From an uncultured Prevotellaceae bacterium (GTDB lineage: Bacteria; Bacteroidota; Bacteroidia; Bacteroidales; Bacteroidaceae), in NCBI GenBank assembly GCA_902784615.1, contig CACZVN010000016.1, forward strand, positions 1-64,000: DNA of 64,000 nt, read 5' to 3'. Below, piece after piece: positions 48,615-63,772 of this stretch (position 1 is its first letter; each line of letters starts with the position of its first letter). The position numbers and the translations under genes are program-made. The notes under the pieces were generated by a model. That model searched no databases. It saw nothing but the letters and a program-made list of their open reading frames with translations, and had not been told where the DNA came from.

Positions 48615-48763
48615 CTGATAGACTTGTGACATGACTCTTCAGCTGTGACAAAGGTAGGAGAATGAGGATTTTGGCATTTATGCAATACTCACCATCAAAG
48701 ATGGTTAGGATTAATTTCACCACGCATTTCTGTTAGTGGAATCCTATTCTCCTGAGTCAAATT

Positions 48764-51172
48764 TTATATCAACAGACTTCCTATCTGATAGACGAGGGCA
48801 GAGGCCACCCAGGCGACGACGGTGGTGTAGCAGGCGGCGAAGGTAGCCCAACGCCAGGAGCCCGTCTCGTTCTTGATGGCTGCGATGGTAGCCACGCAGG
48901 GGAAGTAGAGCAATATAAATATAAGGTACGCGTAGGCAGCGAGCGGTGTGATGCCCTCGGAGAGCATCAGTTGGCGCAGACGGGTGTAACGTTCGTTGTC
49001 GTCGCTGAATGAATCTTCATCGGCAAACGAGTCGTCGCCTGAGTAGAGCACGCCGATGGTGGAAGCCACAATCTCCTTGGCACCTACGCCAGCCAAGAGC
49101 GACACGTCGAGCTTCCAGTTGAAGCCCTGAGGCGTGAAGACGGGCTCGATGGTCTTGCCCATGCGGCCCAGATAGCTCTGCTCCTGTTGCTGCTGTTGGG
49201 TGAGTGCCTCGTTGTGGGGGAAGTACTCCAGTGCCCAGACGATGATCGAGGCCACAAGGATGATGCCACCCATCTTTTTCAGGTACTCCTTACCTTTCTC
49301 CCACGTATGGCGCCAGATGGCCTTAGGCGTCGGCCAGCGGTAGGGCGGCAGTTCCATCACGAACGGTGTGTCCTCGCCCTTGATGACTAACGACGAGAAT
49401 ATCTTGCTGATGATAACAGACATGGCGATACCTATCGCATAGAGCGACAGCAGCACCCATGAGCGGTATTGCAGTGAGAAGAACGTGCCTGCGATCATAA
49501 TATAGATAGGTAATCGGGCGGAACACGACATGAACGGCAGGATCATCATCGTGATGATGCGCGAACGGCGGCTCTCGATGGTGCGCGTGGCCATGACGGC
49601 TGGCACGTTGCAGCCGAAGCCCATGATCAGCGGGATGAACGACTTGCCATGGAGCCCCATCTTATGCATCAGTTTATCCATGATGAAGGCGGCACGCGCC
49701 ATATAGCCCGAATCCTCCATCAGCGAGATGAAGAAGTAAAGGATGAGGATCTGTGGCAGGAAAACGATGACGCTGCCCACACCACCGATGACACCATCGA
49801 CGAGCATGGCCTTCAAGGGACCTTCGGGCATATTCATGCTGACCTTATCACCTAACCAGCCGACAAGCCATTCGATCCAGTCCATTGGGTATTGGCCTAA
49901 TGAGAACGTGGTCTCGAACATCACGTAGAGCAGCAGGAAGAAGATGGGAAAACCGAAATACTTATGCGACAGCACGCGGTCTATCAGATGCGTCACCTTA
50001 TAGGTGTCCTCCTTCGAGCCCGTCTTGAACTTCGCCTCCTTCAGGGCACCGTGGATGAAACCGTATTTGGCATCCATGATGGCCGTCTCGGAATCGCTGC
50101 CCGTCTCCTCCATCACACGGGCAGAGGCCTTATCGCGGGCATGTGTCAGATTATGGAAGTCGTGCATGCGGTTCTCGCCCGCCATGTGTTTGCCTAAGTA
50201 GTCGAGCACTTGAGAGTCGTGCTCCAGCAGTTTCAGTGAGAGGTAGCGGGTGGAGTAGTGCTGGGTGATATGCTCATCGGCCTTCAGGTATTTCTGGATA
50301 TGGCTGATGCCGTCCTCGATCTCGTGGCCGTAGTTGATATGCAGGTGGCGGGAGTGTTTGCTGGCACCCTCATACACCTGGATGACGGCTTTGAACAGTT
50401 CTTTGACACCCATACCGTTCTTAAACGATGTGGGAATCATCGGCATTCCGAAGAGGTGGCTCAGCGTCTCGATATCGACACTGTCACCGCGACGCTCAAA
50501 CTCGTCGTACATATTCAGGGCGCACACCATACGGATGTTCATATCCACCAGTTGGGTGGTGAGGTAGAGGTTGCGCTCAAGGTTGGAGGAGTCAATGACG
50601 TTGATTACCACGTCGGGCATCTTCTCCGTCAGGTGCTCACGGACGTAGAGTTCTTCAGGTGAGTAACAGGAGAGGGAGTAGGTGCCAGGCAGGTCGGTGA
50701 GGTTGAACTCGTAGCCGAACATGGAGGCGTGGGCCTCGGTGGCATCGACGGTGACGCCTGAGTAGTTGCCCACATGGCCGTGGGCGCCAGAGGCATAGTT
50801 GAAGAGTGAGGTCTTTCCGCAGTTGGGATTTCCTACGAGCGCTACGTTGATCGTACGGCGCTCCTTCATGGCCTCGTGGTGGATATAGTCGTCCTCGTGA
50901 CGGTTGTCGTCGGGGGATAGTCTGAAGGTTGTCGCCTCTAAGGGCGTGTCGGTGGAAACCACCTCTATATTATCGGCCTCCTGATGGCGGAGTGATACCT
51001 CATAACCCATCAGTTTGTACTTTACCGGATCCTGCAGGGGTGCATTGAGAAGCACTTCCACTTTCTTGCCCTTGATGAATCCCATCTCGATGATGCGCTT
51101 ACGGAAACCACCGTGACCCTGTACCTTCACGATCACGCCGCTTTCGCCTGTCTTCAGTTCTGAGAGTTTCAT
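48764..51172 (-). CDS. feoB: FeoA-FeoB fusion ferrous iron transporter
   Basis: Inner-membrane Fe(II) uptake protein with FeoA fused at the N-terminus (about 1-75, SH3-like, MKLSELKTGESGVIVKV). The G-protein domain follows with G1 GNPNCGKTSLFN, G2 GVTVDATEA, G3 DLPGTYSL and G4 ALNMYDEFE. Then a GDI-like helical region and the membrane core with Gate motifs (FGCNVPAVMATRTIES and a LLAGVGAKEIVASTIGVLY segment). 802 residues. The fusion is common in Bacteroidetes. It has its own promoter, TATCTTTG at 51191-51198, so it is probably independent of the acyl-transfer operon upstream. Confidence 0.95.
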   Translation of the reverse strand: MKLSELKTGESGVIVKVQGHGGFRKRIIEMGFIKGKKVEVLLNAPLQDPVKYKLMGYEVSLRHQEADNIEVVSTDTPLEATTFRLSPDDNRHEDDYIHHEAMKERRTINVALVGNPNCGKTSLFNYASGAHGHVGNYSGVTVDATEAHASMFGYEFNLTDLPGTYSLSCYSPEELYVREHLTEKMPDVVINVIDSSNLERNLYLTTQLVDMNIRMVCALNMYDEFERRGDSVDIETLSHLFGMPMIPTSFKNGMGVKELFKAVIQVYEGASKHSRHLHINYGHEIEDGISHIQKYLKADEHITQHYSTRYLSLKLLEHDSQVLDYLGKHMAGENRMHDFHNLTHARDKASARVMEETGSDSETAIMDAKYGFIHGALKEAKFKTGSKEDTYKVTHLIDRVLSHKYFGFPIFFLLLYVMFETTFSLGQYPMDWIEWLVGWLGDKVSMNMPEGPLKAMLVDGVIGGVGSVIVFLPQILILYFFISLMEDSGYMARAAFIMDKLMHKMGLHGKSFIPLIMGFGCNVPAVMATRTIESRRSRIITMMILPFMSCSARLPIYIMIAGTFFSLQYRSWVLLSLYAIGIAMSVIISKIFSSLVIKGEDTPFVMELPPYRWPTPKAIWRHTWEKGKEYLKKMGGIILVASIIVWALEYFPHNEALTQQQQQEQSYLGRMGKTIEPVFTPQGFNWKLDVSLLAGVGAKEIVASTIGVLYSGDDSFADEDSFSDDNERYTRLRQLMLSEGITPLAAYAYLIFILLYFPCVATIAAIKNETGSWRWATFAACYTTVVAWVASALVYQIGSLLI

Positions 51173-51190
51173 GTCATTTTAATTTTTGGG

Positions 51191-51198
51191 CAAAGATA
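51191..51198 (-). promoter_or_regulatory. -7 box for feoAB
   Basis: TATCTTTG on the minus strand, 18 nt before the ATG. I see no obvious Fur box. Confidence 0.5.
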
Positions 51199-51251
51199 CA
51201 ATAAAAAGGCGTGCAACCCAGTTGCAATGAGCCGTTGATGCCGTAAAATAC

Positions 51252-52187
51252 CTACTTTTGGGGATAGATCACATCGTAGAGCATCCGTGAGAATTTGTCC
51301 GCACCTGTGGATGTCAGGTGGCTGGAGTCGTTGAAGTCCTCGGGAAGGAAACCCTCAGCAAAGAGGAAACTATGGTATTCCACATTCGGATATTTCTGCT
51401 GCAGTTTCTGGACGAAACTCTCAATGTCGCGCAGGGCTTCGGGATGGATGGCATCCTGATAGGTCTTATAGACAGGTGTATGTACCAAGATCAGTCTGGC
51501 TCCCTGCTGTTGGGTCACTCGGGCAATGGTCTCATACACATTCCACAGCTTATCATACGTCTCCTCATCAATAGGTTCGGAAGGATCAAACTCATCAGCC
51601 AGGTTACGGTATTCCCAGTCAGCCAGTCGCTCGTTAACGTCGAGTCCGCAATATCCCAAAGAGTCGCACTCCAGTATCTTTTCGGCCTTATTCCAGAAAC
51701 GGGACATGTAGTTCAGTTTGGAGTTCAGGATTTCCGACCAGTACCAGAAGGGCTTCAGGTGTATGCCCATATATTTCGTATGCATACAGTGACAGGTGCC
51801 CATAAGACTGAATGCCCCAGTGTTGACCTCCTGTTCGTTATGCTTCAGGCGTCCAAACAGGAAGGTGGAGTAGTCCATGTGCATGATGACAGCCTCGAGG
51901 CTGTCCATGCCCGGTACGTATTTCTCTGCTAAGGCGGCATCGTATTCGTTCAGACGGGCAGAGATGGCCATATTGAAAGCGCCTTCTCCCAATAGGGCAG
52001 GATTGATACCCTCCTCAACGTGTGAGCTGCCTAAGAGCAGTACTTTAATATCCTTCTGGTGGTCTTCCACATACTGCCGCTTATAGGAATAAACATTCGG
52101 GCGGTACAGTAGTCCGACCTCAATGGCAATCAGCATCACGAGGAGCAGGGCGCCGAATTTGGAAAGGGTGATAAGAAACTGCTTCAT
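51252..52187 (-). CDS. Membrane-anchored SGNH/DltD-like protein
   Basis: N-terminal membrane anchor (FGALLLVMLIAIEVGLLY) and a periplasmic SGNH-hydrolase-like domain. Block I serine is in VLLLGSSHVEEGINP (about 53-56), and the C-terminal Asp/His pair is in DSSHLTSTGADKF (Asp287, His290). This arrangement is that of DltD, AlgJ/AlgX and PatB partners, which receive acyl groups from an MBOAT protein and pass them to a polymer. It is the last gene of the secA operon, 6 bp after the MBOAT gene. 311 residues. Transfer partner and acceptor unknown. Confidence 0.78.
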   Translation of the reverse strand: MKQFLITLSKFGALLLVMLIAIEVGLLYRPNVYSYKRQYVEDHQKDIKVLLLGSSHVEEGINPALLGEGAFNMAISARLNEYDAALAEKYVPGMDSLEAVIMHMDYSTFLFGRLKHNEQEVNTGAFSLMGTCHCMHTKYMGIHLKPFWYWSEILNSKLNYMSRFWNKAEKILECDSLGYCGLDVNERLADWEYRNLADEFDPSEPIDEETYDKLWNVYETIARVTQQQGARLILVHTPVYKTYQDAIHPEALRDIESFVQKLQQKYPNVEYHSFLFAEGFLPEDFNDSSHLTSTGADKFSRMLYDVIYPQK

Positions 52188-52193
52188 GTGGTG

Positions 52194-53660
52194 TCAGAAT
52201 TGGAAGTAAATAAATGCCTGGCTCTTGCCCGTGAAGGTGATGATGAGCAGGATGATCAACAGATAGAAGGCAAAGCGGCAGACCCTCGTGCTGAACAGTC
52301 GGAAGTCCTGCAGTTGGAGCGCATGCTCCTGCTTGCGTTGAATCCACTCGACAACCAGTAGCATAAGAGCCATGAGGATATACAGTTTGCAGTAATTGTC
52401 GATAACCAAGGGGGCTGCGAAGCCATTAGTACATGTGGCCATGAGGAAGTCAACGGCCTGACTGATGTTGTCAGCCCTGAAGAATACCAACGACAATGCC
52501 CAGAGACAGAAAGTGAGCACCATCTTTCCGACATCTTTCAGGAAGGGCAGACCGTGGTCGTTGGCTTTGAGTTTCTTGTTCTTGCCGAAAGCGCCCGACA
52601 GGATGAGGGGGATGAAGAGCAGACCATGATATAGGCCGAAGACGCCAAAGGTCCAGTTGGCTCCATGCCACAGACCAATGAGTACCAAGTTGATGATGGC
52701 TGCCAGCATAATACCGAGATTCCCGAGATCTCTGAAAGCGATGTTCAGGGGCATGAAGACATAATCCGTGATCCATCCCGTGAGTGACATGTGCCACCTG
52801 CGCCAGAACTCCGCCATGTTACGGGCCAGGAAAGGATGGTTGAAGTTCCTGTTCACCTGGAAGCCCAACAACTTTCCGACGCCAATGGCCATGTTGGAAT
52901 AGCCGTCGAAGTCGGCATAGAGTTGGATGGGGTAGAGCAGGATGGCTATCAGGAGCATAGCCGATGACTGACTGTCGTATGCTGTCCAGGCATTGCCCGT
53001 CATGATGGCCAGGTTGTCGGCAATGACCATCTTTGTGAACATACCCCACAGGATCTGCCGGCAACCGTCTGCCGCCTGCAGATAGTCTAATGTATGTACG
53101 CGCTGCAGTTGTGGCAGGAACTTGTCAGGACGGTCAATGGGACCAGAGAGGATCGTCGGAAAGAATGCGATGTAAGCAGCAAATTCCGTCAGTTCCCTAC
53201 TGGGCATGATATGCTCACGATGGATCTCAATGATGTAACTGATAAGCTTGAACGTAAAGAAACTGACACCGATGGGTAGGATGATGTGAAGCGTGTTCCA
53301 CGATACCTGTAGGCCGATGGCATTCAATAAGTCTGCCAGTGACTCGGCGAAGAAGTTCAGGTATTTGAAATACAACAGGACGGCAATGCCTATCACCACA
53401 CTCAATGTCGTGATATGGGAGGCCCTGCGCGTACGGTGGTTGTCCATCTCGTGGCGGAGCCACAGTCCCAGTCCCCAGAATACGGCGGTGGCTCCCAACA
53501 AAATGGGAATCATCCGCCAGTCGGCAATGCCATAGAAGACATAACTGGCCAGCAGCAGCCAAGTGTTCTGAAAACGTGGGGACTTCCTGCAAACTGGTAG
53601 ATAATAGACAGAGAAGACTATTACAAAGAAGAGCAGGAAGCTGTATGAATTGACAACCAT
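52194..53660 (-). CDS. MBOAT-family O-acyltransferase
   Basis: Polytopic membrane acyltransferase of the DltB/AlgI type, 488 residues with about eleven hydrophobic segments. Conserved features are LPIGVSFFTFKLISYIIE (about 128-145), DFDGYSNMAIGVGKLLG (250-265), EFWRRWHMSLTGWI (284-296), and the invariant histidine in WHGANWTFGVFGLYHG (His332). MBOAT proteins of this kind take an acyl group from a carrier on the cytoplasmic side and deliver it across the membrane. Located between a dedicated ACP and an SGNH partner. Confidence 0.92.
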   Translation of the reverse strand: MVVNSYSFLLFFVIVFSVYYLPVCRKSPRFQNTWLLLASYVFYGIADWRMIPILLGATAVFWGLGLWLRHEMDNHRTRRASHITTLSVVIGIAVLLYFKYLNFFAESLADLLNAIGLQVSWNTLHIILPIGVSFFTFKLISYIIEIHREHIMPSRELTEFAAYIAFFPTILSGPIDRPDKFLPQLQRVHTLDYLQAADGCRQILWGMFTKMVIADNLAIMTGNAWTAYDSQSSAMLLIAILLYPIQLYADFDGYSNMAIGVGKLLGFQVNRNFNHPFLARNMAEFWRRWHMSLTGWITDYVFMPLNIAFRDLGNLGIMLAAIINLVLIGLWHGANWTFGVFGLYHGLLFIPLILSGAFGKNKKLKANDHGLPFLKDVGKMVLTFCLWALSLVFFRADNISQAVDFLMATCTNGFAAPLVIDNYCKLYILMALMLLVVEWIQRKQEHALQLQDFRLFSTRVCRFAFYLLIILLIITFTGKSQAFIYFQF

Positions 53661-53664
53661 GTGC

Positions 53665-53907
53665 TTACTTCAGTTTCTCCAGCATCGAGGTGACCATCTC
53701 GCCGACGTTCCTCCACTTCATGATCTCTAAGGAGGTGAACTTAATGCCAAATGCCTTCTCGATGGCCACAATGAGCTGAATATGACTCAGGGAGTCCCAT
53801 TCCTCAATGTCGTTGGCACTGGTCTCGTCTGTCAATTCCAGTTCGTCGAGGTCGAATACATCCAAGAAAATCTCATGTAACTTGCTAAAAATCTCTGCTT
53901 TTTCCAT
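53665..53907 (-). CDS. Dedicated acyl carrier protein
   Basis: 80-residue four-helix carrier with the phosphopantetheine serine in EEWDSLSHIQLI (Ser39). It is acidic in helices 1-2. The sequence is not that of the housekeeping AcpP, whose motif is GADSLD; the WDSL form is typical of pathway-specific carriers such as those working with FkbH or DltA-like enzymes. It sits 4 bp before the MBOAT gene, so is the likely acyl donor. Confidence 0.9.
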   Translation of the reverse strand: MEKAEIFSKLHEIFLDVFDLDELELTDETSANDIEEWDSLSHIQLIVAIEKAFGIKFTSLEIMKWRNVGEMVTSMLEKLK

Positions 53908-53926
53908 ATCTTTTACTTTTTTACCT

Positions 53927-54646
53927 TTATATTATATGTTGTGCGGCGTTGACAGGAATCTCCACGCCATTTAACTGTTGACTGGCCTCTAACAGACTGA
54001 CGATGATGCCAGCCACCTCTTCCGGCTGTAGGAGTTTCTTCAGAGGATGCGCCTCTTTCATCTGTTCCAATTGGAAGTCCTCAACCTTTCCAAAGTCAGT
54101 CTGCATATAGTCTGGGAGGATGCAGTTGCTGGTGATATTAAACCGTCCCAGTTCCTTGCTCCAACTCTTGGACAGCTGTCGGATATAGGCTTTGGTTGCC
54201 GTATAGACGGAGAATCCTGTTGGGGGTACGTCCATCACGTAGGAGGTGATGATATTGATGATCTTTCCGAACTTACGTTTCCGCATACCTTGGGCACAGG
54301 CCTGTGTAATCCTGATGACGGGCATCACGTTGTCATGGAAAGCCTTGGAAAAGTCATCTGGGGCTGTCTTGTGGAAATGGACACCTTGTGCGGTACCGGC
54401 ATAGGCATTGTTGATGAGCACATCAACCTGCTCGTTTGACAGGATCTGTATAAATTGGTCCACACTCGCTTCATCGGTAAAATCTACCTGGACTGCCCTG
54501 ACATTGGCGTATTGGCCAGCCAGTGCCTGGGCTTCATCCTCATGACGGCAATAGGTAAATAATACCTGATGCCCTGCCGATGCTGCACATGCTTCTACCA
54601 ATGCCTTTCCCAAACCAGAGGATCCTCCTGTGATGATAATGTTCAT
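53927..54646 (-). CDS. Short-chain dehydrogenase/reductase
   Basis: NAD(P)-dependent SDR of about 239 residues. Cofactor loop TGGSSGLGKALVEA near residue 6, LINNAYAGTAQG where most family members have NNAG, and catalytic YTATKAYIRQLSKS with the Tyr-x3-Lys pair. It resembles 3-oxoacyl-ACP reductases. With a hotdog dehydratase and an ACP next to it, reduction of a carrier-bound keto group is the simplest reading. Confidence 0.86.
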   Translation of the reverse strand: MNIIITGGSSGLGKALVEACAASAGHQVLFTYCRHEDEAQALAGQYANVRAVQVDFTDEASVDQFIQILSNEQVDVLINNAYAGTAQGVHFHKTAPDDFSKAFHDNVMPVIRITQACAQGMRKRKFGKIINIITSYVMDVPPTGFSVYTATKAYIRQLSKSWSKELGRFNITSNCILPDYMQTDFGKVEDFQLEQMKEAHPLKKLLQPEEVAGIIVSLLEASQQLNGVEIPVNAAQHII

Positions 54647-54649
54647 GCG

Positions 54650-55072
54650 TTATTCGTTTAAGAGTCCTATCTGCACATGCCCTTTGGCCACCAGTTGACG
54701 ACCAGTGTCAGTTGTCTTATAGAACTTGAGTTTATAATTGATGATGTTGACTGCCTCAGAAACAGTGTGGATACCAGCCTCAAGTGTAATCTCGTCGTTC
54801 AGGAACACTGGCTTGTGGAAGTTGATGTCCTGTGACTGGATCATGACGTGTGGGGTAGGGAGACACATGCCTACGAAGTGAGAGATAAAGGCATTGAGGA
54901 TGTTGCCATACATGACACAGCCTCTGAACCCCTTTGATTTGGCAAAGGCTTCATCTGTATGCAGGGGATTCATATCCTGACTGCAATGCTGGAAACTCTC
55001 GTAAACCTCAGGTGTCACTTGATAGACATGTGACAACGATGCCGTCTTCTCAGCCAGTTCTGTAATAGTCAT
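54650..55072 (-). CDS. MaoC-like hotdog-fold hydratase/dehydratase
   Basis: Single hotdog domain of 140 residues with the (R)-hydratase signature: catalytic Asp and His in CSQDMNPLHTDEAFA (about 30-44), followed by GFRGCVMYGNIL. Such enzymes interconvert 3-hydroxyacyl and enoyl thioesters. Its ATG overlaps the FkbH stop (55069-55072), and the SDR follows after 3 bp. Confidence 0.85.
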   Translation of the reverse strand: MTITELAEKTASLSHVYQVTPEVYESFQHCSQDMNPLHTDEAFAKSKGFRGCVMYGNILNAFISHFVGMCLPTPHVMIQSQDINFHKPVFLNDEITLEAGIHTVSEAVNIINYKLKFYKTTDTGRQLVAKGHVQIGLLNE

Positions 55073-56811
55073 GCTGTTTCCGATTTAGTAATATAACATT
55101 CTCTTGGTTGATAGGCTACCACATCCAGTTCATACTGGGCAGTGGCTGCATCTTCGATTTTCGTAAAGCCAAGACCAGGATAGTGCTGTTCCACCATCTT
55201 GTTCTTGGGGGTAGGAAGATACTCGCCGATAATGCGCTTGTAGCCTGCTGCCTTGGCACGCTCCACCATCGTGTTGAGGGTGAAATTTTCCATGCCACGC
55301 TTCAGCACACGGCAACTCATGAACCAGGTATCAACAAATAATGTCTCTGCATCCTGGGGCTTCATGATGATGACGGCAATCAGACCGTTGTCACCGAATT
55401 TATCCTCCAACGTAAAGCTCAGGTCAATGACTTTAGGATCCTGTGCCAGAGCCTCGATATCGGCCTCTGTATAGCGAATTGTTCTGAGGTTGAACTGGTT
55501 GCTGCGCTGGGATAGTTGGGCAACGCGTGGGGTATTGAACTTCGTGAATCCGCTGACGACGGACACCATGTCAAGTGACTTCAGGAAGTCTGCCTCGTTG
55601 CTGAAGGTCTTCTGGAGGGAGACACGTTTGGCTTCTACCTGATACTGTTTGGTACGGTCTTTGTCAGCGTTGCTATAAGATGCCGTCTCAAAGAGGTTCA
55701 AACTATAGAGGTACTCCAGATAATCCCCTGGATCAACAGGGAGTTCAGGCACTGTAATACCAGGAATATTCTCCCTGACCATGTTACGCTCGAAGGGGTT
55801 GTCATCGAGGAATACCATCGAGTCGAAACCGATGTTCAGGATGCTCTGGATGGTGCGGATATTATCTACTTTTGTCTCCCAGTTGGCTTGGAATACAGCA
55901 ATGTCTTCGAGTTTCAGCACCATGTCAGGGTGCTTCTCGAAAGGCTCCTTGGCCGTCTCCTCATTGTTCTTTGAGGCCACACAGATGATAATCCCTCGCT
56001 GTTTTAGTTTCTTCACCCACATCTGGAACTCTGTGAATGCCTTACCGATACCCAGACCATGTCCCAGTTGTATGCCTTCCAGTCCGTCATCGCCGATGAC
56101 GCCTCCCCAGACCGTATTGTCAAGATCCAGGATCAGGCATTTCTTGAACTGTCCCTTGATAGCGCAGATGATATCCATCACCCGGCTGGCCACATAGGGC
56201 AGGGCATCAATGCTGAGCACCATCTCCGTACTGACATATACATTCGGTGCAAACATGAAGTCACGACCTAACTTGTTCTGCAGTCCGGCAATGTCACAGA
56301 TAAACAGGTTGGCATATTGCTGGGAGAGATCCATCAGTCCCATATTGAGCTTGCGTACCTGATATGTCAGCGAGGAAGTCACCTTCGTAGCATAACTGCC
56401 AAAGACGGTATCCTCAATCTCCGGATAGTCGAAATAGATAATCTTCTTGTTGGTCAAAGCTGGGTTCTCACAGAGCGAAGATACAAAGGCGAGACGGTCG
56501 TCTGCCAAGGTACTCTGCTGTTCCTGGTTCAGGGCACTGTGCTGCTCACCCAACTTATGCGTTGACTGGAATACGACGATGAAATCCGCATCAAACTCGT
56601 AGAGTTCACTCGTGGGATCCAGAAACTGGCGTTCCACCTGATTGTACTCTGCCTCGAAGAGGTCGGTCTGATAGCCGCGCTCGATGCTGATGCCTTTGAT
56701 GGCTGTAGCCAGGAACTGTGTGGCCGTATCACCTACCAGAGCCACTTTGGTCTGTGGCAGTCCGGCCGGCATGTGCTTCACAGATTTCTTGAGTTCTTGA
56801 AAAGAAAGCAT
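55069..56811 (-). CDS. FkbH-like HAD-IIIC protein with GNAT-like C-terminus
   Basis: Three parts: an N-terminal SGNH-like region (about 20-215, VALVGDTATQFLATAI); a HAD-IIIC phosphatase core with nucleophile DLDNT (229-233) in LILDLDNTVWGGVIGDDG, the FkbH signature; and a C-terminal GNAT-like domain (about 420-565, DNGLIAVIIMKP and CRVLKRGMENFTLNTM). Characterised FkbH enzymes take 1,3-bisphosphoglycerate and load a glyceryl group onto a carrier protein. Here the carrier would be the ACP three genes on. 580 residues. The start is one base after the ATPase stop. Confidence 0.88.
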   Translation of the reverse strand: MLSFQELKKSVKHMPAGLPQTKVALVGDTATQFLATAIKGISIERGYQTDLFEAEYNQVERQFLDPTSELYEFDADFIVVFQSTHKLGEQHSALNQEQQSTLADDRLAFVSSLCENPALTNKKIIYFDYPEIEDTVFGSYATKVTSSLTYQVRKLNMGLMDLSQQYANLFICDIAGLQNKLGRDFMFAPNVYVSTEMVLSIDALPYVASRVMDIICAIKGQFKKCLILDLDNTVWGGVIGDDGLEGIQLGHGLGIGKAFTEFQMWVKKLKQRGIIICVASKNNEETAKEPFEKHPDMVLKLEDIAVFQANWETKVDNIRTIQSILNIGFDSMVFLDDNPFERNMVRENIPGITVPELPVDPGDYLEYLYSLNLFETASYSNADKDRTKQYQVEAKRVSLQKTFSNEADFLKSLDMVSVVSGFTKFNTPRVAQLSQRSNQFNLRTIRYTEADIEALAQDPKVIDLSFTLEDKFGDNGLIAVIIMKPQDAETLFVDTWFMSCRVLKRGMENFTLNTMVERAKAAGYKRIIGEYLPTPKNKMVEQHYPGLGFTKIEDAATAQYELDVVAYQPRECYITKSETA

Positions 56812-56812
56812 A

Positions 56813-57514
56813 TTATTCAGTTTCGAAATAATTCTCTAATTCACTGCGGGCGCTTCCCTGTTCGTTCTGCATGTCACGGATGATCTGACCTTTCTCAAGC
56901 AGCGCAATGCGTGTGGAGATATCGATGGTGTGAGCCAGATTGTGACTGGATACGAGAATGGTGGCTCCCGTCTCCTTGTTGTATTCCGTTAGTACATGCT
57001 TCAGTACATTCTGACTAGAGGGATCCAGGAAGTTAAAGGGTTCGTCGAGGATTACCAGTTTTGGACGGTTAAAGAGGGCGGAGATGATGCCCACCTTCTG
57101 TTTGTTACCTGCCGAGAGGTTACGGATCAGTTTCTTCTGCCCGAAGATTTCTCCATTGGCCAGACGCTCAAAATCCTTAAGGCGTTCGTTCACCTGTTCC
57201 TGAGTCATATTCGTGATCTTGCCGATGAAGGCGAAATATTCCTCAGGAGTGAGGAAGTCAATGAGGAAGCCTTCGTCGATATAGGCACCTGTGGAGGCTT
57301 TCCATTCCTCAGACTGGGCAGGGTTGATGCCGTCGAGACCGACCTGGCCTTCATCGGGCTTCAGCAGATCAAGGAGCATGCGGAACAAGGTGGTCTTTCC
57401 TGCACCGTTATTTCCTACCAGACCGAGGATGTCCCCGTCGTTGACAGTAAACGTTCCAATATTACAGGCGAGGGTTTCGCCGAAAGATTTCTTGAGGTTT
57501 TCTATTGTAATCAT
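56813..57514 (-). CDS. ABC transporter ATPase subunit without adjacent permease
   Basis: Walker [12 protein letters not shown] near residue 38, signature [16 protein letters not shown], Walker [13 protein letters not shown], and the H-loop SSHNLAH. Sequence type is that of multidrug/ABC-2-type ATPases. No membrane subunit is nearby, so it may couple to one encoded elsewhere. ATG 57514 is used; it overlaps the secA stop as ATGA, so its translation is tied to secA. 233 residues. Confidence 0.88.
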
Positions 57515-60500
57515 ACTACACCCTTTCCATGACAATTCTTAAACTTCTTACCTGAGCCGCAGGGACATGGATCATTACGTCCGGGCAGTTTGTCCTTGAT
57601 GATTGGCGTGCGATTCTGTTGAGCACGGGTGTCGTGCGCAGCTGCAGCCGCCTGGTTGGGATCTGTGAGCTGTTCCTCGCCGATGTTCTGCTTCGACTCC
57701 GTATATTGCTGGCGCTGCGTGCGTTGTTCGGGAGCAGCCTCGCGAACCTGCTGTTGGGTAGCCTCTGGAATCTGAGCACGCGTGAGAATAGAGCAGATAC
57801 GGTTATACATCTCGTTGATCATGTCATCCCAAACCTTCGCTGATTCAAGTTTGAAGATCAGCAACGGGTCTTTTTGCTCGTACGAGGCATTCTGTACGGA
57901 GTGCTTCAACTCATCGAGCTGACGCAGGTTCTCTTTCCATGAGTCGTCAATGATATGCAGGAGAATAGACTTCTCAAACTCCTTCACAATCGACTTGCTT
58001 TCAGATTCGTATGCCTCTTTCAGGTTACAGGGAATGTTGTACATCTTACGGCCGTCGGTCATAGGCACCAGAATACGCTCATACATCTGTCCCTGGTTCT
58101 CATAGACTTGCTTGATGATGGGCTGAGCCACGGTCTGGATTCGTTCCGTACGACGGTTGAAATTCTCGATGGCAGCCTGGAAGGCGTTCTCTGTCAGTGC
58201 CTCACGGGGCTGGTTGATATAGTCTTCACTGGTAAACGGAACCTCCATCGACAGCACGTGGAGGAACTCCTCCTTACAGCCCTGGTAGTCACCAGAGTTC
58301 TCGATGATGTTCACCACACGATCCCAGATGATATTGGCGATATCCATACCGATGCGCTCACCCATAAGGGCGTGACGACGCTTCTCGTAGATCACAGTAC
58401 GCTGCTTGTTCATCACATCATCATACTCGATCAGACGTTTACGAATACCGAAGTTGTTTTCCTCGACCTTCTTCTGGGCACGCTCGATACTCCTTGAGAT
58501 CATTGGACTCTCGATCATCTCTCCGTCCTTGAAGCCCAGACGGTCCATTACAGAAGCAATACGCTCAGAAGCGAACAGTCGCATCAGTTTATCCTCGAGA
58601 GAGACGAAGAATACCGAAGAACCCGGGTCACCCTGACGACCTGCACGACCACGCAACTGACGATCGACACGACGGCTTTCGTGGCGCTCCGTACCGATGA
58701 TGGCAAGACCACCAGCGGCCTTCACTTCCGGTGAAAGCTTAATATCGGTACCACGACCTGCCATGTTGGTGGCGATGGTAACGGCACCGAGTCCGTTGGT
58801 CGATTGTCCGGCCTGTGCCACAATGTCTGCCTCCTTCTGGTGGAGCTTGGCATTCAGCACCTGATGGGGGATCTTACGCATGGAGAGCATCTTTGAGAGC
58901 AACTCAGAGATCTCGACCGAGGTGGTACCTACCAAGGTAGGACGCCCAGATTCGCGCATCTTGACAATCTCGTCAATCACGGCGTTATACTTCTCACGGG
59001 CGGTCTTATAGACACGGTCATCCTGATCATTACGGATCACAGGACGGTTGGTAGGAATCTCCACCACGTCGAGTTTGTAGATATCCCAGAACTCACCAGC
59101 CTCTGTAGAAGCCGTACCTGTCATACCGGCTAATTTGTGGTACATGCGGAAGTAGTTCTGCAGGGTGATGGTGGCGAAGGTCTGTGTGGCAGCTTCTACC
59201 TTGACGTGCTCCTTGGCCTCGACAGCCTGATGCAGACCGTCGCTCCAACGGCGGCCTTCCATGATACGGCCTGTCTGCTCATCCACGATTTTCACCTCAC
59301 CATCGATGACCACATATTCGTCATCCTTATTAAACATACAGTAGGCCTTCAGCAACTGCTGGAGGGTATGTACGCGCTCACTCTGTATGGCATAATGGTT
59401 CAGGAGTTCGTCCTTCTTGTCCAAACGCTCCTGATCACTGAGACCAGCCTCAGCCTCCAAGGCAGAGAGTTCGGAAGTGATATCGGGAAGCACGAAGAGT
59501 TCTGTGTCGTTCACCTGTTTGGCGAGCCAGGCTGTACCCTTATCCGTCAGGTCGCAGGAGTTCAATTTCTCATCGACGACGAAATACAGAGGCTCCACGC
59601 ATTCTGGCATACGACGGTTGTTATTCTCCATGTAGATATTCTCAGTATTCTGCATACCAGCCTTGATACCCTCTTCGGAGAGGAACTTGATCAAGGGCTT
59701 GTTCTTTGGCATGGCCTTATGAGAGCGGTATAGTGACAGGAAACCTGCGTCGAGTTTTTCCTGACCTTCCTTTTTGTTGCCTGCTTCTACGAGGCGGTTA
59801 CCTTCGCCGATCAAAGTCTTGGCATCTGCCAGATACTGAGTCGCCAACTGACGCTGAACACCCACAAGGCGCTCCACCAGGGGTTGATATTCCTCGAACA
59901 TCTGATCATCGCCCTTGGGCACAGGACCGGAGATAATCAGCGGTGTACGGGCATCATCAATCAACACAGAGTCCACCTCATCGACGATAGCGTAGTTATG
60001 TGAGCGCTGCACAAGGTCAGCAGGTGAGATAGCCATGTTATCACGCAGATAGTCAAAACCGAATTCATTGTTTGTACCAAAGGTGATATCTGCCTGATAG
60101 GCTCTGCGACGAGCCTCTGAGTTAGGCTGGTGCTTGTCGATACAATCAACGCTCAGTCCATGGAACATATAAAGCGGTCCCATCCACTCGGAGTCACGCT
60201 TGGCCAGGTAGTCGTTCACGGTCACAACGTGAACACCATTACCAGTCAGTGCATTCAGGAAGACGGGTAGGGTAGCCACGAGGGTCTTACCTTCACCCGT
60301 TGCCATTTCTGCGATCTTACCCTGATGCAAAACAACACCACCGAACAACTGTACGTCGTAGTGGATCATCTCCCATTTCAGGTCATTACCACCTGCTGTC
60401 CAGTGGTTATGGTAGATGGCCTTATCACCGTCGATGGTGATAAAGTCCTTCTTGGGATCACCGGCCAGTTCACGGTCGAAGTCTGTAGCCGTGACGATGG

Positions 60501-60879
60501 TCTCTTCGTTCTCAGCGAAACGCTTGGCTGTCTCTTTTACGATGGCGAAAACCTCAGGCATCACCTCATCGAGCGCTTTCTCATAGATATCGAGCACTTC
60601 CTTCTCTATCTTGTCGATCTGCTCGAAAATGCTGGCACGTTCGTCAATGGGGGTGTTCTCGATAGTTGCCTTCAGTTCTGCAATTTTGGCCTTTTGCTCT
60701 TTAGCAGAGTCCTGTACCTGCTTTTGGAGTTCTTTGGTACGCTGGCGGAGCGCATCGTTATCTAAGGATGCCACTTTCTCCGTAGCGGCCTTGGCCTGTT
60801 CTACAAATGGTTGGATTAATTTCATGTCGCGGGTGGATTTGTCACCAAACAACGACTTGAGGAACTTGTTGAAATTCAT
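57511..60879 (-). CDS. secA: Protein translocase ATPase SecA
   Basis: Motor of the Sec pathway, 1122 residues; the Bacteroidetes type with insertions is longer than the ~900 of E. coli. Walker [44 protein letters not shown], and a C-terminal SEC-C zinc motif [19 protein letters not shown]. The first gene of the operon, with a good promoter and a leader of about 50 nt. Its 3' end is coupled to the ABC ATPase gene, which ties an essential gene to the acyl-transfer genes. Confidence 0.97.
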
Positions 60880-60933
60880 ATTGTTATCTTACTGTTTTTT
60901 CAATTTAATAATCTGTTTTCTGAAAATCGGCTG

Positions 60934-60965
60934 CAAAGTTACATAAAAAAAATGTAACTGCCAAA
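60934..60965 (-). promoter_or_regulatory. Promoter of the secA-acyl transfer operon
   Basis: On the minus strand, TTTG (60962-60965) and TAACTTTG (60934-60941), spacing 20 nt. Confidence 0.7.
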
Positions 60966-61007
60966 GAAATCATACAGAACATAGTTCTGAAAGGTTCAAT
61001 TTACCAT

Positions 61008-62537
61008 TCAGAACAATGGTTCTGCAGTACAGGCATTAGGAGCTCTTATACGGATGGACTTGGCAATAGTCGGAGCTATCCTATCAGTAGTAACTGGTAT
61101 TTGTACATGTCCTGCAGGGATTCCCACACCATAAAAGATGATAGGGAAAGCAGGGACAGCCGCCTGTGAAAGTCTGTCATCATTAGTGTCTTCATTTTGC
61201 AAATGCCAACCAGAAGCAACCTCAATCAGAATGTCGCCACTGTGCTGAGAATGGAAGCTGTTGCGCACCTTTGAGAAAAGGCCTTCGTAACTGTTCAGAA
61301 GTTGTTGGGCAGTGAATACATTCTTAACCCCAGACATCTGCAAGATAAACTCTTGAGCTCGCTGAGAGGCATCTTCCAGACTGATACGCTTAGATTCCAG
61401 TAATTTGTGATTGAGATAGAGTTGGTCGTCGTAGCAGGTATTAACATAGCGTCCCTGTCCCCAGAGGGCTCCAAAATACATATTCAGCAGGTTAGCAGCC
61501 CGATTTATATAAAATGTGCCTGTGGGAATGCGGTATTTCGAGTAGTCTGTGCTTTCTGGGTCACTATAGCCTGTACTGGTAATGCAGAAGAGTACCTGTT
61601 CCTTGCCAAGTTTGTTCTCCAATGCTGTTATCAGACTGTCTAACGACTGATCAAGACGAATATAAGTATCTTTGAGTTCTTTCTGACATTCTGTCACAGG
61701 CTTGTGGTCAAAAGGTCCGGCATAATAGGAAAGACATAGTAGGTCGGTGATGGAATCAGTACCCATTTCCTGTTCATCGACACAGGCTAGTGCCAATGCC
61801 GTTATGTCAGCATTTATCAAACCAGATGTCTGATATTCCTGATATTTCCTGTTGCTCTTAAGATGATGTTTGAAATCAGGCTTTTGCTTGACGATAAAAG
61901 GCTGCCATTCTATCCGCCTTTTCTTTTTATTTGTTTTGTTTAACTCATTGTAAGAGAGTGCCCATACAGGTATTCCATTTGAGTAATACTGAGATGTGAT
62001 CCATTGCCCAGTATTCCCACTCATCCATACAGCTCCATCAGCTGCATGACCAGCAGACAGAATGGCCATATCCTGAAAAGGTGAAATAGCAAATATTTTC
62101 GCATTGCCATTTGTGGAGATCTTCAGTTCATCGCCTATACAAGAGACTGCCAATTGGGCAGGTGAAGGTATGTCTGGTTGATGTGTGTCTTCTGTACAAG
62201 ATACTGGTCGCAAACTATTTTTGTCGATCCATTGATCCCCGGTAATACCATGATAGAATGGGGTTGTACCCGTGACAATGGTCGAAATGGCAGAAGCTTG
62301 ATCCGGATTGATGAAGGGGTAAGAAACATTCTCGTAAACAAGACCCTGCGACAATAACTTTTTAAAACCATTATCTCCATAGTTAGCAGCGAAGGATTCA
62401 AGAAAGTCGCTGCGTAACTGGTCGATGGTGATATTGACGACCAGTCTTGGCACCTGCCTGTTTACATATTGTGCCTGAGCATCAATATGCCATCCTAATA
62501 CGGCCAGCAGGGTAATGGAGAGATAATGGTTCCTCAC
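61008..62537 (-). CDS. Exported alkaline-phosphatase-fold protein, probable pseudoenzyme
   Basis: Signal peptide (YLSITLLAVLGWHIDAQAQ) and a PafA/NPP-like phosphatase fold: VVNITIDQLRSDFL with the first metal Asp, YENVSYPFINPDQAS, TGTTPFYHGITGDQW, IIFYGVGI. Aligned by eye with PafA, the nucleophile motif T-x-x-x-H-x-S reads QASAIST, the metal pair DH in TADHG reads TG in TSTGYSD, the D-x-x-G-H site reads AGPFDH, and the late His of THVP is missing (PAFP). I infer loss of metal binding and catalysis. GTG start, overlapping the Lnb stop by 4 bp. 509 residues. Confidence 0.75.
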   Translation of the reverse strand: MRNHYLSITLLAVLGWHIDAQAQYVNRQVPRLVVNITIDQLRSDFLESFAANYGDNGFKKLLSQGLVYENVSYPFINPDQASAISTIVTGTTPFYHGITGDQWIDKNSLRPVSCTEDTHQPDIPSPAQLAVSCIGDELKISTNGNAKIFAISPFQDMAILSAGHAADGAVWMSGNTGQWITSQYYSNGIPVWALSYNELNKTNKKKRRIEWQPFIVKQKPDFKHHLKSNRKYQEYQTSGLINADITALALACVDEQEMGTDSITDLLCLSYYAGPFDHKPVTECQKELKDTYIRLDQSLDSLITALENKLGKEQVLFCITSTGYSDPESTDYSKYRIPTGTFYINRAANLLNMYFGALWGQGRYVNTCYDDQLYLNHKLLESKRISLEDASQRAQEFILQMSGVKNVFTAQQLLNSYEGLFSKVRNSFHSQHSGDILIEVASGWHLQNEDTNDDRLSQAAVPAFPIIFYGVGIPAGHVQIPVTTDRIAPTIAKSIRIRAPNACTAEPLF

Positions 62538-63772
62538 GCTTTATATTTCAAATTAATATGTACTCGTAACAGCAAACATAGTGCCACAATCAACATCCCT
62601 TCAGCATACTGTTGGAAGAAACTGCCTAACAGGAAGAGTGTGGCCATTGTGAGAAGTACTTTCCACCAGCGATTGGAGCGCCTTCTGGTGACAGCAGGTA
62701 TAAAGAACAATGCGATGGGATTCAGCAGCAATATCTGTAAATTAGTACTGGTAGTGGGATGCTGAGAGAACAGCATGACAAACAGCACGCAGCCTGCCAA
62801 TCCCTGAAGGAGCATGAGTAGTGCGTCCCAGTATTTAAATGTTCTTTTGCGTTTCCATTCTAATGCCAGAATGATCAGTGAACATATCAGGAACAAACAG
62901 GCACATGCCATCGGTGAAAGGGGAAAATCTTGTTCAATGATCTGTACACCTGGAGGTACCAGTATCCTGCGTTCTTTAACCAAAGGTCGATATTCTCCGC
63001 TGGAATAAATCTGTGCCCTGTCAAAATCATACATCAGGTTCTCTGGCAAAAACTCTTGTTCCCGGAGGGTTGTCTTCATATCGGCTTTTACACCTAACAG
63101 CATATCATTGCCAAAAGCGGCCCATGGATGATTCCTGACACAAGAGTGAACCATGTCCCTATATGACGGGGAATAATCCTCACGCTGTGCATATTTGATA
63201 TTGCCGTTAATACATTTTTCAATAACATCCCTTGGACGGGTGGAACAGTTATCGTAAAAATAGTTGTAACGATATACTTTATTCTCTGGCTTTAAATTAT
63301 CTTCAAGAATATCTTTTAAATGACGTTTCTCTTCATTGGTCAGGTTGAATACCTGTTCCATGACAGAACTACCGTATTCCTTGTAGTATGGCCAAAAATA
63401 ATCATAGGGAAATACCCCCAGTTCATAGTCTGTCAAACCAAAGACGAAACGGAGAACAAAATAAGGTTTCCTGAAATCAAATAGTCCCCAATTGAAAACC
63501 CAGTCTTCAGCATTGGCACCAGGTTTAATTTGGCCTAGGTAGTGCCATCTGATAGCAGAATGTCCATAGAGACTGTATATCTCCTCATGTGGTGAGCAGG
63601 TGAGCAGACTGACTTCTACAGAGTCCATTGGGTCATAATTCAGTCCAACAGTGTCGTTAACTGCATTGAAGGAGAAGGCTTCGTATTGAGCCTTGATGGG
63701 GATTATGCCTCTGAATATCAGTAGGATAAGTATAATCAGAAGCGTCTTTGATTCTTTTTCTAAATGTTTCAC
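62534..63772 (-). CDS. lnb: DUF4105 protein, lipoprotein N-acyltransferase Lnb-like
   Basis: Signal or anchor helix, a periplasmic DUF4105 domain (about 45-260) and four to five C-terminal membrane helices (about 285-405). The papain-like pair expected for this family is visible: His in SLYGHSAIRWHY and Cys in FYDNCSTRPRDVIEK. DUF4105 proteins of Bacteroides include Lnb, which N-acylates mature lipoproteins in place of Lnt. Several lipoproteins in this window would be substrates. GTG start, 4 nt below a TATTTTTG box. 412 residues. Confidence 0.82.
   Translation of the reverse strand: MKHLEKESKTLLIILILLIFRGIIPIKAQYEAFSFNAVNDTVGLNYDPMDSVEVSLLTCSPHEEIYSLYGHSAIRWHYLGQIKPGANAEDWVFNWGLFDFRKPYFVLRFVFGLTDYELGVFPYDYFWPYYKEYGSSVMEQVFNLTNEEKRHLKDILEDNLKPENKVYRYNYFYDNCSTRPRDVIEKCINGNIKYAQREDYSPSYRDMVHSCVRNHPWAAFGNDMLLGVKADMKTTLREQEFLPENLMYDFDRAQIYSSGEYRPLVKERRILVPPGVQIIEQDFPLSPMACACLFLICSLIILALEWKRKRTFKYWDALLMLLQGLAGCVLFVMLFSQHPTTSTNLQILLLNPIALFFIPAVTRRRSNRWWKVLLTMATLFLLGSFFQQYAEGMLIVALCLLLRVHINLKYKA

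Follow-up and report, generated by a model that had tools for sequence, protein, structure and literature searches.

An array of eight genes was analysed in a stretch of 64,000 nucleotides (the window; positions 1 to 64,000 of contig CACZVN010000016.1, assembly GCA_902784615.1) from an uncultured Prevotellaceae bacterium, whose draft genome comprises 2.74 Mb on 53 contigs and is 84% complete. The array contains secA, an ABC-type ATPase gene (abc) and the six genes fkbH-maoC-sdr-acp-mboat-sgnh, here called the cassette, which encode an FkbH-type protein, two putative tailoring enzymes, an acyl carrier protein (ACP), a membrane O-acyltransferase (MBOAT) and an SGNH-fold protein. A check of the open reading frames (ORFs) confirmed that all eight lie on the minus strand where the initial annotation had placed them, as follows.

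57511..60879, minus strand: secA, a housekeeping gene outside the cassette (NF009536; adjoins 29 of 30 ABC loci)
56813..57514, minus strand: abc, an ABC-type ATPase and conserved secA companion, its ATG start overlapping the secA stop (ABC_tran)
55069..56811, minus strand: fkbH, with FkbH_N, HAD-IIIC and C-terminal domains, a putative loader of a glycerate-derived acyl group (FkbH_N, TIGR01686, conserved residues)
53908..55072, minus strand: the whole tailoring slot, from fkbH stop to acp start, empty or replaced in relatives (locus comparison)
54650..55072, minus strand: maoC, a hotdog dehydratase/hydratase, gene 1 of the slot (Pfam MaoC, residues, 1iq6 alignment)
53927..54646, minus strand: sdr, a FabG-like reductase, gene 2 of the slot (Pfam SDR, residues)
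53665..53907, minus strand: acp, a stand-alone carrier protein with phosphopantetheine serine S39 (PP-binding)
52194..53660, minus strand: mboat, a DltB-like membrane O-acyltransferase (Pfam MBOAT, DltB alignment)
51252..52187, minus strand: sgnh, an SGNH-fold protein with an N-terminal helix, S55 and H290 being invariant in a 19-row alignment (alignment, model)

The tight spacing claimed for the array was also found. The gaps are 1 (abc-fkbH), −4 (fkbH-maoC), 3 (maoC-sdr), 19 (sdr-acp), 4 (acp-mboat) and 6 bases (mboat-sgnh); the mechanical ORF of abc starts at a TTG at 57535 (−25 to secA), and if the in-frame ATG at 57514 is taken instead, abc overlaps the secA stop by the four bases ATGA. 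Pfam and NCBIfam models agree with the identities proposed for seven of the products: SecA scores 1911 bits against the NF009536 cut-off of 1493, the FkbH protein exhibits FkbH_N and 301 bits on TIGR01686 against a curated cut-off of 146.65 together with the HAD catalytic residues of the family, and the others match ABC_tran, MaoC, SDR, PP-binding and MBOAT. The sgnh product has no Pfam match at E 0.01, and querying the PDB sequences with an SGNH profile gave no meaningful match. Its identity is supported by a structure model built from 19 related sequences (mean predicted local distance difference test score, pLDDT, of 86), in which an SGNH fold is predicted, with PatB, thioesterase and acetylhydrolase structures among the top Foldseek matches and DltD ranked lower than the best ones. 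The SGNH protein of one relative matches Pfam ALGX.

The surroundings of the ABC ATPase point to a composite array. Among 60 genomes of the genus, 46 contained a match to this ATPase at 1e-60, and the best 30 were taken as loci with 1.5 kb flanks: secA adjoins in 29, feoB in seven and fkbH in two, one of which is the window. Because secA is nearly always present and fkbH so rarely, the ATPase is assigned to secA and not to the cassette; as judged from gene order, secA and the orphan ATPase are an old pair. The ATPase was therefore rejected as an exporter of the cassette product. No permease was found near it among six downstream ORFs scanned in other genomes. One 529-residue fusion (L072) has an N-terminal part that gives no Pfam match. 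On the other side of the cassette lie two further features:

51173..51251, minus strand: feoB leader, which directly follows abc at the uninterrupted site of another genome, G041 (comparison with G041)
48764..51172, minus strand: feoA-feoB fusion, the right-hand neighbour of the insertion site (domain matches)

Genome G041 presents an uninterrupted secA-abc-feoB order, its three genes aligning with those of the window at 74-80%. Shortly after its abc stop comes AAAAGTAGGTATT; in the window, this string lies across the sgnh stop and runs into the feoB leader. Therefore, abc and feoB are separated in the window by a segment from fkbH to sgnh that is missing at the G041 site. From these comparisons, the window array is a composite of the secA-abc pair and an accessory cassette, placed there in one rumen Prevotella subclade.

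The distribution of the cassette was examined at the best 80 of 157 FkbH relatives from a scan of named genomes, many of them metagenome-assembled; 59 of these named loci have 6 kb flanking fkbH on both sides, and some contigs are short. Within 6.5 kb of FkbH, an ACP is present in 76, an MBOAT in 68 and an SGNH protein in 64 of the 80, and by this gene company the cassette is a recurrent system. Similar sets occur on Alphaproteobacterial plasmids: a Rhodobacteraceae plasmid has the order ACP-FkbH-MBOAT-hypothetical-VOC, and pSymB of S. meliloti (L190, CP140934.1, 1856-7737), an organism with tractable genetics, has VOC-MBOAT-gene-ACP-HAD (FkbH). In our reading of the sequences, the middle gene of S. 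meliloti, whose annotation as 'TonB-dependent receptor' is doubtful, and the Rhodobacteraceae hypothetical gene may both be SGNH-like; neither has a Pfam match. Of 398 genomes of the genus, 42 match FkbH at E ≤ 1e-3, and 23, the window's counted, have a full-length match at 66-67% identity or above; in the phylum-wide search, 1e-60 was reached in 19 of 395. The genus and named sets of fetched loci share several genomes and are not independent, and the Fisher values for the neighbour counts take no account of relatedness. CotH-kinase-like genes were found within 7 kb of fkbH at five of the 80 loci (L096, L097, L117, L122 and L132).

Conserved gene order downstream of secA, which the initial annotation had proposed to check, is not seen. 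Nine of the 80 named loci occupy the secA/feoB site, eight with secA and one (L088) on a contig that begins at fkbH and retains feoB; among the 20 genus loci fetched from the 23 genomes with full-length FkbH, three are at secA. The closest named locus, from a water-buffalo Prevotella metagenome-assembled genome (L087), has an FkbH 97% identical to that of the window and the same gene order; the cultured Prevotella aff. ruminicola Tc2-24 (L089) and Prevotella sp. khp7 (L101) are among the others with the cassette at secA. With the window added to the nine, MaoC and SDR are present in seven and neither in three. The secA linkage thus looks accidental, the cassette having come to stand behind secA, as we see it, only through insertion.

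The content of the slot varies between loci. Within the 6.5 kb radius, no tailoring gene was recognised in 33 of the 80 loci, an epimerase-like VOC gene was present in 22, MaoC+SDR in 17, MaoC+transketolase in 3, MaoC+SDR+transketolase in 3, MaoC+SDR+VOC in 1 and VOC with SDR in 1. In the strict fkbH-acp interval on one strand, the counts are MaoC+SDR 11, VOC 9, the transketolase set 5, VOC+MaoC+SDR 1 and a CotH gene 1. Tailoring genes stand directly 3' of acp in eight Flavobacterium- or Sphingobacteria-type loci (VOC in three, MaoC+SDR in five), and 30 of the 80 have no recognised tailoring gene either between fkbH and acp or after, one of them (L147) with a 0.9 kb gap. The acp gene is on the opposite strand in 11 loci, nine of which have VOC beside fkbH, and an ACP was not found in four. 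All 24 loci with MaoC also have SDR or transketolase, and all six with transketolase have MaoC; VOC and MaoC occur together in one. The transketolase, encoded as a split gene, is beside FkbH at L111, L112, L113, L115, L135 and L148.

Pairwise comparison of related loci locates the borders of the exchange. Between L092 (MaoC+SDR) and L094 (VOC), 94% DNA identity extends as far as the final base of fkbH, and the alignment resumes five bases before acp, at 71%; in both, the ATG of the slot gene overlaps the fkbH TGA. For the secA-linked loci L098 (MaoC+SDR) and L097 (empty), the identity is 84% until fkbH ends, and they realign within about 16 bases of acp (81-88%). Loci L139, L140 and L148, of the MaoC+SDR, empty and transketolase types respectively, share fkbH at 91-92% and acp in part, and their outer flanks do not align. 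Slot labels on the FkbH tree require at least 22 changes, compared to 40 with shuffled labels; this is a quick tree, and when only its strongly supported branches are counted, the minimum is 8 changes for MaoC+SDR and 5 for VOC. By these alignments, MaoC+SDR is an insert swapped as a unit between relatives, which the initial annotation had not foreseen.

The catalytic residues of the cassette are conserved. FkbH D229, D231, K281, D336, D337 and C500 are present in 83 of 83 sequences, two Alphaproteobacterial ones included, and C277 in 58; C500 is constant and C277 varies, which makes C500 the better candidate for the acyl-enzyme. The ACP serine S39 is found in 77 of 77. MaoC, a hotdog-domain protein, aligns with the (R)-hydratase 1iq6 and retains D33, N35 and H38 in 25 of 25, including the catalytic Asp and His of (R)-hydratases/dehydratases, and SDR retains Y148 and K152 in 23 of 23; the nearest PDB entries are (R)-hydratase for MaoC and FabG for SDR. 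The VOC proteins of relatives match Glyoxalase_4. MBOAT H290 and H332 are present in 69 of 69, and the protein aligns with DltB across both histidine motifs; its SGNH neighbour has both the Ser and the His. These residues, together with the recurrent gene company, support the earlier proposal of a carrier-dependent acyl group passing from FkbH, MaoC, SDR and ACP to MBOAT/SGNH.

The gene set, the active sites, the insertion site and the slot exchange are read from the sequences; the chemistry given here and, below, the acceptor and the co-transcription are our inferences. According to PMC7489565 and PMC8949500, FkbH proteins charge carrier domains with glyceryl derived from 1,3-bisphosphoglycerate, and the resulting glyceryl-ACP may be a substrate of dehydrogenases. 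By analogy, the FkbH of the cassette would take a phosphoglycerate-derived unit, strip the phosphate and load glyceryl on the cassette's own ACP. Considering that closely related fkbH genes adjoin any slot content, the FkbH product is probably shared and altered by the slot. MaoC could remove the 3-(beta-)hydroxyl of glyceryl-ACP, giving enol-pyruvyl and then pyruvyl-ACP, which the FabG-like SDR could reduce to lactyl-ACP; lactyl as the product in the window comes somewhat short of even odds. A D-lactate starter has a precedent in the BryA loading module of bryostatin. Adding a two-carbon unit to this ketone is a possible role of the transketolase halves and would account for their company with MaoC, and VOC could epimerise the alpha carbon, perhaps from D- to L-glyceryl. 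More speculatively, the FkbH-ACP-MBOAT-SGNH chassis would remain constant and a swapped insert of 0.4 to 2.9 kb, bordered by gene edges, would pick the surface acid (D- or L-glyceryl, lactyl or a branched acid built by the transketolase).

The MBOAT would then take the acyl group from the ACP at the inner face of the membrane and, with the periplasmic SGNH protein, transfer it onto a hydroxyl group of a molecule at the cell surface. We consider it quite likely that a glycerate-derived acyl-ACP is handed to MBOAT/SGNH. As a whole, the best explanation is an accessory, carrier-protein-dependent O-acylation cassette, to which we give a probability of about 60%.

Another locus (L184, 6492-11479, contig C2 of G000) has two MBOAT genes with an SGNH-like gene behind each (259 bits, a strong match to the hidden Markov model (HMM), and 15 bits, a weak one). 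These MBOATs are 63% and 40% identical to that of the window and 66% and 61% to those of cassettes L100 and L092. No FkbH or ACP match was found near them in 18 kb, and the acyl-ACP made by the window's cassette may serve them in trans.

As to the acceptor, we lean towards a glycan. With HMMs built from the studied loci, at least two glycosyltransferases or a Wzx/Wzy were counted in 32 of the 80 loci. A peptidoglycan or lipid acceptor of the PatA/PatB kind, in place of a capsular or O-linked glycan, is unlikely, given these 32 relatives amid glycan genes; moreover, an accessory, swapped cassette would better suit a variable surface structure than conserved peptidoglycan.

Several observations weigh against the O-acylation cassette, its acceptor or the role of its slot. 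Glycosyltransferase or Wzx/Wzy genes gave one weak match (39 bits) in the 64 kb window and none in eight secA-linked named loci, and the site of the window therefore gives no hint of the acceptor. Twelve of the 80 FkbH loci have no MBOAT within 6.5 kb, some being cut by contig ends. Four other MBOATs of the genome lack an ACP match in their vicinity and reach 146-184 bits with the DltB model, compared to 197 in the cassette; since these scores are similar, the DltB-model score was dropped as proof of ACP use. Genome G331, with an empty slot at secA, carries MaoC and SDR as a separate pair at another locus that has CotH-like genes (L193, 10536-16001), so that an 'empty' slot need not mean an unmodified acyl group; in G020 (92% complete) and G369 (87% complete), whose slots are also empty, a MaoC match was not found. 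Finally, slot-type changes number 16, 16 and 17 on the FkbH, MBOAT and ACP trees (68 rows). An MBOAT reading the acyl group might track slot type more closely, but the MBOAT tree fits the slot no better than the FkbH tree, and co-evolution of MBOAT with slot type, of which there is no sign, was discarded.

Two other readings of the tailoring enzymes were considered. The SDR might oxidise glyceryl-ACP in the style of methoxymalonyl-ACP, giving a semialdehyde or dicarboxylic acyl group, with MaoC otherwise employed. In known FkbH pathways, glyceryl-ACP is indeed oxidised by two dehydrogenases (PMC7489565), but the cassette has one SDR, not two dehydrogenases, and the paired dehydratase keeps its catalytic residues, which makes this quite unlikely. 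Less probable again is a small fatty-acid or hydroxyacyl module of MaoC, SDR and ACP (e.g. 3-hydroxybutyryl), whose carbon would not come from FkbH. The (R)-hydratase and FabG relatives noted above would suit it; however, a ketosynthase and a malonyl transferase were not found among the eight genes, and MaoC+SDR is dispensable, as in 30 of the 80 loci FkbH and ACP occur without any recognised tailoring gene in between or behind them. The functional link to SecA, export or envelope growth suggested by the initial annotation, in which the cassette would acylate SecA-exported proteins or couple envelope growth to export, is highly implausible: the adjacency and plausible co-transcription in the window and the nine loci at the site would agree with it, as would L142 and L159 with secA within about 10 kb, but a cassette-free site exists, 71 of the 80 named loci lie elsewhere (some on short contigs) and the cassette is absent beside most secA-abc pairs.

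At L142 (Pedobacter) and L159 (a metagenome-assembled genome of Sphingobacteriales), secA is on differing sides of the cassette and not adjacent, by chance or through a shared insertion region.

Upstream of secA, a pattern scan detected one further feature:

60934..60965, minus strand: promoter-like site TTTG-N20-TAnnTTTG (pattern scan)

We take this pattern to be the Bacteroidetes-type promoter consensus. It is the single full match on both strands of 48701-62800 (one seen against 0.04 per mononucleotide shuffle), in agreement with the proposal that one promoter serves the array; feoB, on the other side, is preceded by a −7-like element by itself (51198). Transcription of the whole array from one promoter is thus plausible, and the secA promoter may read the cassette. 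A palindrome-like string upstream of feoB, TTGCAACTGGGTTGCA at 51212-51227, has similar strings in relatives and is possibly an operator of the iron gene.

The cassette resembles known systems in its parts. Like Dlt (DltA-DltD, teichoic acid D-alanylation), it has a carrier protein, a DltB-like MBOAT and an SGNH partner, and the acyl group would be carried across the membrane. However, the host is Gram-negative, the tailoring slot is added, and DltA is absent (no AMP-binding match at E 0.01 in the eight genes), so that FkbH would do the loading; the MBOAT falls below the cut-off of the DltB equivalog TIGR04091 (197 bits against 375) and the ACP below that of DltC NF003464 (16.6 against 68). 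The AlgI/AlgJ-AlgX and PatA/PatB O-acetylation pairs share the order of an MBOAT then an SGNH protein, PatB being one of the top fold matches; they are not known to come with a dedicated carrier protein or FkbH. The polyketide pathways of tetronates and methoxymalonyl-ACP likewise employ an FkbH-type protein and a stand-alone ACP, with later enzymes acting on glyceryl-ACP (PMC7489565), but they supply a polyketide synthase, whereas the partner here is the MBOAT/SGNH pair. The papers found on FkbH, glyceryl and acyl carrier protein, among them PMC7489565, PMC8949500 and PMC4552970, are mostly on polyketides. For FkbH together with an MBOAT and a carrier protein, only a review of cyanobacterial peptides came up, and for gellan with glyceryl, work on food, materials and drug delivery. 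The collection searched contained no paper on FkbH with exopolysaccharide, HAD-IIIC with MBOAT, or MBOAT/SGNH/carrier with polysaccharide, and none naming BF1531 or 3SLR. The latter, a Bacteroides fragilis protein (PDB 3slr) deposited as an uncharacterised protein, is a close relative of FkbH residues 2-382 (E 6.6e-178). Both halves, glycerate loading and MBOAT/SGNH transfer, are already known, and the novelty lies in a tailoring slot that can be swapped.

The proposed link to secA is corrected by these results. If the O-acylation cassette is as described, polyketide-type glycerate loading and Dlt/PatAB-type membrane transfer would be joined in one envelope-modification system, shared by rhizobia and by Bacteroidota of the gut and rumen. 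It would predict lactyl or glyceryl esters, perhaps missed by glycan analyses, as esters are easily lost. The slot swaps would then be a natural series for probing the role of the acyl group, relatives altering their surface chemistry by insert exchange.

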